From Pseudoxanthomonas sp. (GTDB taxonomy: Bacteria > Pseudomonadota > Gammaproteobacteria > Xanthomonadales > Xanthomonadaceae), in the NCBI RefSeq assembly GCF_024710765.1, contig NZ_JANJUE010000107.1:1-64000 (forward strand): 64,000 bases of DNA. Reading direction: 5' to 3'. The notes beneath the pieces are model-generated. The model ran no database searches and was not told the origin of the DNA. It was given only the letters and a program-made list of their open reading frames with translations. This document shows positions 20,810-25,634 of this stretch, in pieces. The translations under genes and the position numbers were made by a program. The first letter of the stretch is position 1, and every line of letters begins with the position of its first letter.

Positions 20810-21721
20810 CTACAGCCCCAGCGCGCGGTACTCCGTGCAGGGGCGGGAACGCTCCCAGACCTGCGCGAATTCATCGCGCAACTGGCGCGCGCGGCCGGCC
20901 GCATCGAGATCCGCTTCGCCGTCGAAACGATGCCCCAGCGTGCGGAAGTAGTAGCCATCGGCGTCGTTGACGGCGTAGGCCGAGGGATAGTTGCGGTCCA
21001 CCGGGTCATGCACCTCGCGGAACAGGAACACGCTGGGCAGCCGCTGGGCCAGGGGCAGCAACGGGGCAAGCCGGCGCTGCGGCGTGCCCGCATCCTGCAA
21101 CAGCACCCGGATTTCCGCCGTCCCGGCGGCACGGGTCGCCAGCCGGCGCAGGGCGTCCAGCACCTCCGGCGCGTCGAACAGGGCCGGCTCCAGGTCCCGG
21201 CTGTAGAGGCACAGGCGCCGGCGGGTGCCGTTGGCCAGGGCCTGCAAGGCGGCCCGGGCACCGGCCTGGTCCTCGATGGCGGTGGCGCCGTCCAGCCGGC
21301 GGCGCATGGCCTGGTGCTCGATGCCGGCTTCGTGGAAACGCGGGCCATACGGGACGAAACCATGACGGGCGTAGAAGTTCTCGGCGCTGACCTGGGCGTT
21401 GAGGGTCAACTCGGACCAGCGCTGCCGGCGGGCCTGGTCCAGCAGCGCGGCCAGCAGGGCGTCGCCGACGCCGCGCCCGCGCCATTCCCGCAGGACCGCC
21501 ATCCGGCCGACCCGATGCTCCGGGGTCAGGCGCCCGGTGCCGATGGGGTGGCCGGCGTCATCGCGTGCCAGCACGTGGTGGCACAGCGGGTCCAGGGCGT
21601 CGCGTTCCTCTTCCAGGGGGACATGCTGTTCCTGCACGAACACGGTTTCGCGCACCTGCAGGAGATCCTCCCGCTGGCGGGCGAATTCGACCGCTTCGAC
21701 CCGGAAGCCCGGCGGATTCAA
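20810..21721 (-). CDS. GNAT N-acetyltransferase with extra C-terminal domain
   Basis: The protein has about 303 residues. The first half is a GNAT fold: VRETVFVQEQHVP, the acetyl-CoA loop VLREWRGRGVGDALL near residue 85, and NAQVSAENFYARHGFVPYG. The second half, about 150 residues, has no motif I know and includes LCLYSRDLEPALFD; it resembles the tail of proteins annotated HPA2-like. I chose a TTG start at 21721 because it overlaps the roxA stop (TTGA) and has GGAGGA six bases upstream. The frame extends further into roxA but is not protein-like there. Its substrate is unknown. It is the last gene of the purB-VOC-bla-roxA-GNAT run. Confidence 0.82.
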   Translation of the reverse strand: MNPPGFRVEAVEFARQREDLLQVRETVFVQEQHVPLEEERDALDPLCHHVLARDDAGHPIGTGRLTPEHRVGRMAVLREWRGRGVGDALLAALLDQARRQRWSELTLNAQVSAENFYARHGFVPYGPRFHEAGIEHQAMRRRLDGATAIEDQAGARAALQALANGTRRRLCLYSRDLEPALFDAPEVLDALRRLATRAAGTAEIRVLLQDAGTPQRRLAPLLPLAQRLPSVFLFREVHDPVDRNYPSAYAVNDADGYYFRTLGHRFDGEADLDAAGRARQLRDEFAQVWERSRPCTEYRALGL

Positions 21722-22902
21722 TCCTCGTCCTCCGCCATGCCCAACTGGTAGTGGCCCTGCGCGGCCAGCGCCATCACCGCGTCGCGGCCGGCTTCCGACA
21801 GGCCAGCGTAGCCGGCCCCGTCGATGCTCTCGGCGGCGGCCAGCCAGCGCGCGTCGGCGATCGGCAGGGCGTAGTCGATGCCGGTGCAAAACAGGGTGGC
21901 CCCCTTGCCCTGGTGGACGCGTCGCCAGGCCAGGCGCGAGAACGGATGCCGGTACAGGCGGGCGCCATGTTCCAGATCCCACTCGAGTTCGATGCGCGAG
22001 CGCTGCTCGGGGGGCGGCGCGACGTCGCCCGCGGCGCGGTAGGTGGTGATGAAGCGCCCGAACCAGTCGCCGAGGCGATCCGGATCGTTCATCCGCAGTG
22101 CGTTGAGCGCTTCCACCACCCGCGTCATCGCCGCGGCGTCGATCTCGTTGGGATCGCGCTGTGGCGCCAGATCCTCGTCGTGGTAGCGCAGCCGATCATC
22201 GGCATCGGCGACCAGGGTATCGAGATAGTCGCTGATCAATTCGGCCGAGGAGGGCGCGCGCATGCCGACCGAGATGGTCAGGCAGGGATTGACCGCCACG
22301 CCATGGTGCGGGACGCCCGGCGGCAGGTACAGCATGTCGCCCGGCCCCAGCACCCAATCATGGGTAGGGGTGAATTCGCGCAGCAGCTTGAGCTCGACGT
22401 CGTCGCGGAAACCGAGCGGGGGATTCTCGCCAGCGTCGATCAGCCAGTGCCGCTCGCCCTGGGCCTGCAGCAGGAACACGTCGTATTGATCCACGTGCGC
22501 GCCGACCGAGCCGCCGGTGGCGGCGAAACTGATCATGATGTCGTCCAGCCGCCAGCGCGGCAGGAAGTCGAAATGCGCCAGCAGGCCGCGCACATCCGGA
22601 TCCCACTTGTCCACGTCCTGCACCAGCAGGGTCCAATCGTGGTGCGGCATGCCGGGGAATTCCTCTTCCTGGAACGGACCGGTGCGCAGGGTCCAGGCAT
22701 CGCGTTCGCGATCATGCATGACGATGCGCGAGAGCGCGCCTTCCTCGCAGGCCAGGCCGGCCAGATCCTCGGGCTGGATCGGCGACTGGAAGTGCCGGAA
22801 GGCATTGCGGATCAGCAGCGGCTTCTTCTGCCAGTACTCGCGCAGGAAGCGCGCGGCGGGCATGCCGAGGAAATGCTTGGCGGTGGCGTGGACTTCGATC
22901 AT
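21718..22902 (-). CDS. roxA: Ribosomal protein uL16 arginine hydroxylase (YcfD/RoxA)
   Basis: This 394-residue JmjC-type Fe(II)/2-oxoglutarate oxygenase has the metal triad His136 and Asp138 in [10 protein letters not shown] and a distal His at 199/200 in PPGVPHHG. The N-terminal region [17 protein letters not shown] is characteristic of YcfD, which hydroxylates an arginine of ribosomal protein uL16. The start at 22902 overlaps the beta-lactamase stop as ATGA. The family is about 373 residues long in E. coli, so the length fits. In E. coli the gene lies near purB too (purB-phoP-phoQ-ycfD, from memory), which makes the linkage here notable. Confidence 0.9.
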
Positions 22903-23831
22903 GGGCGTGGGGAGCTTGCGGGAGCGGGGGCGGCCTCTTCGGCCAGGCGCTTGTCCAGGCGGGCGCGCGCGGATTGCGCGTACTCGCGGCAGGCGGCGGT
23001 GTTCACCAGCGGTTCGCTGGCCCCGGGGCCGACACGGGACCACAACCGGCTGGCGGACGGATGCGGCGTCACCAGGATGTCGCACTCCAGCGCGGCGACC
23101 CGGTCCAGGGCCTGCCGGAAAGCGGCGACATAGCCGGGGTGGGCCTGCTCGTCGCCGAAGCGGTACTGATCGTCGGAGAACGCCGAGAGGCTGTCGGCGT
23201 AGACGAACTGCCGGCAGTCGTCGCCGTCGCAGGAACGCCAGGTCCAGGATGCCGCGCCCGGCGTGTGGCCCGGGGTGGCGATGGATTGCAGCGACAGCGG
23301 GCCGACGGTGACGGTTTCCTCGTCACCGAGGGGGCGGACATTGGCGACCGGCGCGAACGGCTGGAGTTGCCCGAACTGGGGATCGTTGCGGTCATTGGTG
23401 CCGCGTCGCAGCGTGGCGGCCGCGGGTTCGCGCGCCAGCACCGGCGCGCCGGTCGCGCGTTGCAGTTCGGCCAGGCCACCGACGTGATCGAAATGCTCGT
23501 GCGAGATCACGATCGCGCGCACGTCTTCCGGCCGGAACCCCAACGTGCGCAGGTTGGCGAGCACCTGCCTGCCGCCTTCGGCGGTGCCGCCGTCGATCAG
23601 CACGTGGCCCTGCGGCGAGGTGATCAGCAGCGCGCTGATGCCGCAGGTACCGACGAACCAGGTATTGCCGTGCAGGCGCCGGGGCGCGGCGGGGTCATCC
23701 CAGCCGGGATCGGCGGGGCAGGTGGCGGCAGCGGGCGCGGACGCGTCCGCCCGGGCCTGGGCCATCGGCAAGGCGGCCAGCAGCAGGGAGGCGGCCGCCA
23801 GCAGCGGGCGGTAGCGTGGACGGTGGGTCAT
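22899..23831 (-). CDS. Subclass B3 metallo-beta-lactamase
   Basis: This 310-residue secreted protein has an N-terminal signal peptide (about residues 1-28). The metal ligands are His111, His113, Asp115 and His116 in [10 protein letters not shown], His189 in [11 protein letters not shown] and His257 in TPHPSA. This is the canonical B3 set, and [13 protein letters not shown] is also typical of the subclass. It would hydrolyse penams, cephems and carbapenems in the periplasm. It differs from the usual resistance gene context because it is embedded, with 4-base ATGA overlaps on both sides, between a VOC gene and roxA. Codon use looks like that of its neighbours, so recent acquisition is not indicated. 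Actual lactamase activity is inferred. Confidence 0.9.
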
Positions 23832-24226: not shown

Positions 24227-24266
24227 GGGCGCGGTCCTGCGGGGCGGCGTGCGGTCTCCGGAGCGA

Positions 24267-25634
24267 TCAGATCTTCCGGGCCAGCGTTTCGGCCAGGCCG
24301 GTGTAGCTGCCCGGGGTCATGTCGCGCAGACGCTGCTTGGCCTCGGCCGGCAGTTCCAGCGATTCGATGAAAGCGTGCATGGAATCGGCGGTGATGCCCT
24401 GGCCGCGGGTCAGCGCCTTGAGCTGCTCGTAGGGATTGGGCAGGCCATGGCGACGCATCACCGTCTGCACGGCCTCCGCCAGCACTTCCCATGCAGCGTC
24501 CAGGTCCGCGTCCAGGCGCTGCGGGTTCACTTCCAGCTTGCCCAGCCCCTTGGCCAGCGAATCCAGCGCCACCTGGCTGTGGCCGAAGGCGGTGCCGAGC
24601 GCGCGCAGCACGGTGGAGTCGGTGAGGTCGCGCTGCCAGCGGCTGATCGGCAGCTTGGCGCTGAAGTGCTCGAACAGCGCATTGGCCAGGCCGAAGTTGC
24701 CCTCGGCGTTCTCGAAATCGATCGGATTGACCTTGTGCGGCATGGTCGAGGAACCGACTTCGCCTTCCTTGAGCCGCTGCTTGAAGTAGCCCAGCGAGAT
24801 GTAGCCCCAGATATCGCGCGCCAGATCGATCAGGATGATGTTGGCGCGGCGGGCGGCGTCGCCGATTTCGGCGACGTTGTCGTGCGGCTCGATCTGGGTG
24901 GTGTAGGGATTGAACACCAGGCCCAGGCTTTCGACGAAGCGCCGCGCGAACACGGGCCAGTCCACGTCGGGGTAGCTGGCGACATGGGCGTTGTAGTTGC
25001 CGACCGCGCCATTGATCTTGCCGGTCAGTTCGACCGCCGCGATCTGGCCGCGCTGGCGTTCCAGGCGGGCGACGACGTTGGCGATCTCCTTGCCCAGGGT
25101 GGTCGGCGAGGCGGTCTGGCCGTGGGTGCGCGACAGCATCGGCTGCGCGGCCTGCGCATGGGCGAGCGCGCGCAGCGCGGTGGCGATGCCGTCCAGCGAC
25201 GGCAGCAGCACTTCACGGCGCGCCTGTTCGAGCATCAGCCCGTAGCTGAGGTTGTTGATGTCCTCGCTGGTGCAGGCGAAGTGGACGAATTCCAGTGCCG
25301 GCGCCAGCTCCGCGTCCCCCTTCAGGCGCTCCTTGATGAAGTACTCGACCGCCTTGACGTCGTGGTTGGTGGTCCGCTCGATTTCCTTGACCCGGGCGGC
25401 GTCGGCCACCGAAAAACCGTCGGCCAATGCGCGCAGGCGGGTGATCGCGCCGGTGGAGAACGCCGGCAGCTCGACGATGCCGGACTCGGCCGCCAGCGCC
25501 AGCAGCCATTCCACCTCCACCTTGATCCGCGCCCGGATCAGCCCGTACTCGGAAAAGATGGGACGCAGGGCGTCGACCTTGGCGGCATAGCGGCCGTCGA
25601 GCGGGGACAGGGCGAGTAGGGCGGATTCCGACAT
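24267..25634 (-). CDS. purB: Adenylosuccinate lyase
   Basis: The 455-residue enzyme releases fumarate from adenylosuccinate and SAICAR in purine synthesis. The superfamily signature [11 protein letters not shown] is at about residues 297-307, with the usual N-terminal [10 protein letters not shown] and TSEDINN. The length is as in E. coli. It is the first gene of a five-gene minus-strand run and is divergent from the fumarase gene, with 139 bases between the starts. Confidence 0.97.

Follow-up and report, generated by a model that had tools for sequence, protein, structure and literature searches.

Among the closest described relatives of the gene considered here is AIM-1, a subclass B3 metallo-β-lactamase and carbapenemase of Pseudomonas aeruginosa, whose gene is flanked in that host by ISCR15 (PMC8767344). 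The main text of the same study traces blaAIM-1 of P. aeruginosa to Pseudoxanthomonas mexicana, reporting identical ribosome-binding regions and 37 nucleotides (nt) 3′ of blaAIM-1 that match P. mexicana up to ISCR15B (PMC8767344). A second named relative is PJM-1 of Pseudoxanthomonas japonensis. The setting of the gene recalls Escherichia coli MG1655, where purB, phoP, phoQ and roxA lie on one strand. Here we analyse a stretch of 64,000 nt from a Pseudoxanthomonas sp. genome (assembly GCF_024710765.1, contig NZ_JANJUE010000107.1, positions 1 to 64,000; the window), in which a chromosomal gene for a subclass B3 enzyme (B3) lies between purB and roxA. The origin of AIM-1 in P. mexicana is already published; what is added here is that this interval, hereafter the slot, is on present sequence comparisons the chromosomal site that the AIM-type branch shares.

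The B3 gene (22899–23831, minus strand; 310 amino acids) is the third of five minus-strand genes that follow one another as the preliminary description had reported. The run opens with purB (24267–25634; 455 amino acids), encoding adenylosuccinate lyase, and continues with a gene for a protein of the VOC superfamily (23828–24226; 132 amino acids; Glyoxalase_6), the B3 gene, roxA (21718–22902; 394 amino acids), encoding a homologue of the JmjC arginine hydroxylase of ribosomal protein uL16, and a gene for a GNAT acetyltransferase fused to DUF7931 (20810–21721; 303 amino acids). A 40-nt gap (24227–24266) separates purB from the VOC gene. The other three junctions are overlaps: ATGA between VOC stop and B3 start (23828–23831), ATGA between B3 stop and roxA start (22899–22902) and TTGA between roxA stop and GNAT start (21718–21721), so that the intergenic distances read +40, −4, −4 and −4 nt. 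The gene coordinates thus bear out a single co-directional, overlapping run. The parallel drawn earlier with E. coli was also right: MG1655, like the window, has two genes between purB and roxA, although these encode a two-component system rather than VOC and B3 proteins, and roxA is followed there by pepT on the other strand rather than by a GNAT gene. The family assignments of purB, B3, roxA and GNAT–DUF7931 are solid, with purB reaching 738.6 bits against NF006764 (cut-off 446; Lyase_1/ASL_C) and the last gene matching Acetyltransf_10 and DUF7931 (PF25559, 191 bits).

The B3 enzyme of the window looks like an ordinary member of its known family. It scores above the cut-off of the general subclass B3 model NF033105 (315.4 bits, cut-off 240, residues 44–299) and below those of the AIM model NF000439 (444.8 bits, cut-off 675) and the PJM model NF040874 (451.9 bits, cut-off 630), the last being nevertheless its best-scoring NCBIfam model. 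AIM-1 entries are its best solved relatives (E 1.6e-130), with 64.9% identity over 291 aligned columns. Alignment to AIM-1 locates a shared zinc-ligand motif, HEHFDH, at residues 111–116 (23484–23501, minus strand). The ligands are residues 111, 113 and 189 together with 115, 116 and 257, and the site serine is residue 214; we take these to correspond to H/Q116–H118–H196, D120–H121–H263 and serine 221 in B3 numbering. Every one of the 40 slot proteins has these same residues at the six ligand positions and at the serine. By eye, the N terminus resembles a signal peptide, and those of several relatives resemble lipoprotein signals. Across nine pairs of relatives, the ratio of non-synonymous to synonymous substitution rates (dN/dS) was 0.13–0.25 for B3, 0.05–0.17 for roxA and 0.19–0.34 for VOC, with purB at 0.05–0.20 in five of the nine; B3 is therefore under purifying selection, weaker than that on roxA and purB. 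Homology to AIM-1 suggests that the window protein, too, would hydrolyse β-lactams. A second, distant B3 gene, about 30% identical, lies elsewhere in the same genome (G000:C329:3600-4394, L218); it exceeds the cut-off of the general B3 model (322.4 bits) and has CAU as its best named subfamily (289.3 bits, cut-off 500).

Position in the slot is the rule within the genus. We searched 61 genomes for B3, 37 of them from the genus and including the window's own, and found a strong AIM-like B3 in 28 of the 37, each time (28/28) between purB and roxA. One further genome (G061), added through its roxA, brings the totals to 29 slot B3 genes and 38 roxA genes in 38 genus genomes. Among those 29 genomes the order is purB–VOC–B3–roxA in 24, B3 precedes VOC in one and VOC is missing from four. 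The nine genomes without a slot B3 all retain purB upstream of roxA, and their slots hold VOC (two), VOC with other sequence (three), other sequence (one) or nothing (three). The VOC/B3 order is reversed in one genus locus (L023) and in one from another genus (L123); at both, it is VOC that shares a 4-nt overlap with roxA. Four of the nine genomes without a slot B3 carry a B3 elsewhere, against 3 of the 28 with one; that such unlinked genes replace the slot B3 is only suggestive (Fisher p 0.04, computed with 3/29 and uncorrected for kinship). Two genus genomes without a slot B3 have PAM/L1/POM-like B3 genes elsewhere (L215 and L217).

The same frame recurs beyond the genus. In other genera of the family, for which 61 of 65 loci matching roxA were fetched, purB lies upstream of roxA in 58 and was not seen within the stretch in the other three; of the 61, 53 have the GNAT gene after roxA, 56 have fumC at the upstream end and 55 have sucA at the downstream end. 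The 58 slots are empty in 22 cases, hold other sequence only in 12, VOC without B3 in 17 and B3 in 7, B3 having been sought with the window protein alone, a query that a highly divergent B3 could escape. Ten of 49 further slot frames were scanned and comprised two VOC proteins, DUF695, nitronate monooxygenase, DUF3060, TPR, a weak mannosyltransferase match and three with no family. In other families of the class, purB was upstream of roxA in 6 of 20 fetched loci (34 in all). The arrangement fumC< purB> [slot] roxA> GNAT> sucA> is thus a recurrent family frame with variable cargo: the slot is empty at some loci and elsewhere carries VOC, B3, the two together in one order or the other, or different genes. 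The preliminary description had named confinement of the gene order to this strain as evidence that would tell against it; that outcome was looked for, and B3 instead occupies 29 of 38 genus slots and 7 of 58 in other genera.

A B3 tree ties this position to AIM-1. It comprised 80 proteins, namely 40 slot rows, AIM-1 and 39 non-slot rows, the last made up of 13 from other regions and 26 of the 74 named loci outside the purB–roxA context. That context occurs in 6 of the 80 named loci listed out of 231: Pseudoxanthomonas sp. z9, P. beigongshangi, P. koreensis, Luteimonas aestuarii, L. kalidii and L. wenzhouensis; in the other 74, whose titles are mostly sphingomonad, the available surrounding DNA contained none of the neighbours. 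Columns filled in fewer than 30% of rows were dropped, repeats of slot genomes (L031, L032 and L124–L132) and PJM-1 were omitted, and L010, L028 and L200 are represented, here and in the identity comparison below, by B3 proteins with short tails past the stop codon. A branch (94/92) parts all 40 slot rows and AIM-1 from the 39 non-slot rows, which group together in 96% of 200 bootstraps. PJM-1 would be expected in the slot branch as well. The sister of AIM-1 itself is the slot B3 from genome G001 (100/92; locus L227), a protein that shares 97.6% identity with AIM-1 and exceeds the blaAIM cut-off (699.4 bits, cut-off 675).

This branch, together with a 97.6% identical homologue sitting in the slot, marks the slot as home to the AIM-type enzymes; the mobile blaAIM-1 probably left from there. 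The G001 locus reads fumC–purB–VOC–B3–roxA–GNAT–sucA, with the 3′ end of VOC directly upstream of B3 and the roxA start 85 nt past B3. Given that gap, a junction 37 nt past blaAIM-1 would fall before roxA and leave roxA behind. The main text of the study on the origin of AIM-1, figures and supplements aside, mentions none of purB, adenylosuccinate, cupin, JmjC, glyoxalase or operon (PMC8767344). A literature search found no paper that joins these genes, the first reports of AIM-1 and PJM-1 lying outside its reach.

How tightly the genes are coupled differs from junction to junction. Among 40 distinct slot loci from this and other genera, 4-nt overlaps join VOC to B3 in 22 of 28 pairs, B3 to roxA in 18 of 38 and roxA to GNAT in 28 of 38; these are raw counts without a background rate for 4-nt overlaps, and they use script-chosen starts, some of which may be wrong (L005, L018, L033, L122, L172, L194 and L200 are examples) and which are clearly wrong for roxA–GNAT in L194 and L200. 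The nearest relatives of the window, L002 and L003, have its same three overlaps. Where purB adjoins B3 directly, the spacing is −4 to +26 nt in 8 of 12 cases. These counts, taken with a subgroup around AIM-1 that lacks the B3–roxA overlap, indicate that the overlap is usual for VOC–B3 and no fixed feature of B3–roxA. Folding of the B3–roxA gap in four loci of that subgroup produced stems and established no common structure. By eye, and uncounted, the motif GCATCAATG recurs just 3′ of the B3 stop in the gap of many loci of the AIM-1 subgroup (L009–L022).

Taken together, these data favour a reading that we hold with reasonable confidence: the B3 protein would be an intrinsic, chromosomal, exported and working β-lactamase, encoded in the purB–roxA slot and produced by read-through from purB. 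The layout and its conservation, the zinc ligands, the purifying selection, the AIM-1 branch and the 97.6% AIM-1 homologue in the slot of another genome were observed directly. The gene would sit as cargo between conserved purB and roxA and be expressed when transcription of the purB unit reads through it; its translation would probably be helped by the 4-nt overlap with VOC, and the product, once exported to the periplasm, would hydrolyse β-lactams there as its homology to AIM-1 suggests. Co-transcription from purB to GNAT is suggested by the overlaps, the short gap and a terminator-like stem–loop 3′ of GNAT (20772–20794, minus strand; a consensus match only). PurB and RoxA would then be the neighbours that fix the place, with no functional tie needed, and expression from a housekeeping unit is best read as owed to position, not function.

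Several observations weigh against this reading. The support of the slot branch (94/92) is below the starred threshold, one slot protein within it (L194) is a long branch, and the tree program issued a warning that long branches were being joined within the non-slot set. The AIM-1 subgroup (14 loci, L008–L017 and L019–L022) has gaps of 84–161 nt in place of the B3–roxA overlap. In dN/dS, B3 exceeds roxA in all 9 pairs and purB in all 5 for which purB was measured. B3 and roxA similarities agree only in part: their identities correlate (Spearman 0.53; none of 999 permutations as high), yet nearest neighbours differ in 23 of 40 loci, for instance L024 and L200, the latter having a B3 that is 74% identical to that of L027 and a roxA whose closest match in the set reaches no more than 62% identity. 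This partial agreement led us to abandon simple vertical descent for the slot B3; it is read most simply as exchange at the slot, for which the flanking core genes may be the route. Finally, a sigma-70 consensus scan of 20600–25900 found no site and so supports neither a purB promoter nor the lack of an internal B3 promoter.

That scan bears on the alternative with the strongest claim to attention, in which a promoter inside purB or VOC drives B3 under regulation of its own and gene order becomes a poor guide to expression. No promoter-like site was reported in 20600–25900, and the overlap in 22 of 28 VOC–B3 pairs also tells against it; high-GC promoters, on the other hand, are often missed by consensus scans, and we consider an internal promoter unlikely while giving it some weight. 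A TATAAT visible by eye at 20688–20693, near sucA, was not reported by the scan either. Five terminator-like sites, the one 3′ of GNAT among them, were found in the same interval, compared with a mean of 2.1 in shuffles. Joint entry of VOC and B3 into the slot as a two-gene resistance cassette would explain why VOC directly precedes B3 in 24 of 29 genus genomes and why the pair so often overlaps. We nevertheless think it improbable: four genus genomes have B3 without VOC, the order is reversed in L023 and L123, VOC is present in five of the nine genus genomes that lack a slot B3, and outside the genus, where a link between the two was looked for and none seen, VOC accompanies B3 in 2 of 7 slots and occurs in 17 of the 51 that lack B3.

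The preliminary description had proposed that B3 might have a housekeeping substrate; this could be, for instance, a lactone or lactam of the cell wall or of metabolism that ties the protein to purine synthesis or ribosome hydroxylation. Its single place across several genera and the purifying selection on it fit such a role, and the authors who traced AIM-1 found its native function hard to speculate about in their main text (PMC8767344). Against it, 9 of 38 genus slots and 51 of the 58 fetched slots of other genera lack B3, while roxA is present in 38 of 38 genus genomes; the slot elsewhere holds different cargo; an apparently exported enzyme would have cytosolic neighbours; and AIM-1, a carbapenemase, falls inside a slot branch in which the zinc ligands are kept throughout. 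The frequent absence of B3, the variable cargo and the close kinship with AIM-1 make a housekeeping substrate quite improbable, and the sequence comparisons lend the proposal no support. Its companion suggestion, that resistance is regulated together with ribosome modification, fares no better given the same absences beside an ever-present roxA and the other cargo seen elsewhere. Least credible of all is a recent gain by this strain through a mobile element. Discordance between B3 and roxA at some loci does suggest exchange at the slot; however, the conserved position in 29 of 38 genus genomes already refutes a recent gain for this strain, L002 and L003 share its three overlaps, and none of 72,556 plasmids searched had a match covering 80% of the B3 query, the best being LMB-1 (48.6% identity over 79%).

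If B3 is resident cargo of the purB unit, as we favour, a broader history can be sketched, which we put forward tentatively and as somewhat less than an even bet. AIM- and PJM-type carbapenemases may form one locus-bound lineage, held in the Lysobacteraceae purB–roxA slot since before several genera diverged. Expression would be constitutive from the purine unit, with no inducible lactamase regulator involved, and homologous recombination in the flanking purB and roxA genes would pass the enzymes from one species to another; clinical AIM-1 might then be the escape of a bare gene whose ribosome-binding region is a remnant of VOC. The reading would give a definite home to a carbapenemase branch already present in a pathogen. 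It would also supply a marker, since B3 between purB and roxA could tell resident from mobilised copies in environmental or wastewater sequence, and it makes testable the idea that a resistance gene can persist for long periods in a housekeeping operon while its expression stays basal and tied to growth.

The VOC protein of the window has no relative in the PDB at E ≤ 0.01. Two loci carry a second VOC-type gene between purB and the usual one (L125:9507-9875 and L132:6601-7080). Both flanks of the run match the family frame. Downstream, sucA (17764–20595, minus strand; named by reading) is a conserved neighbour and probably a separate unit; upstream of purB, a fumC-type fumarase gene (25774–27216, plus strand; also named by reading) is divergent and likewise conserved. 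Beyond fumC, a frame at 28171–29400 resembles by eye a hydrolase of the serine β-lactamase family, with no NCBIfam model matched at 1e-30.

RoxA scores well above the cut-offs of its two domain models (JmjC_2, 130.1 bits, and ROXA-like_wH, 56 bits; cut-offs 22 and 22). It has the JmjC_2 domain and the ROXA-like winged helix in common with RoxA/YcfD, and in the alignment it shares, by eye, the HxD...H pattern with 4nub; its nearest solved relative is the cupin-4 protein 4csw rather than an enzyme of the E. coli type. Its substrate in E. coli we take to be Arg81 of uL16, in the sequence context of that species; uL16 of the window's genome reads ...EVRMGSGKGN..., the context expected around the substrate arginine. 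The gene is present in genus genomes whether or not the slot holds B3, and with the substrate arginine in place it looks like a genuine uL16 hydroxylase gene.

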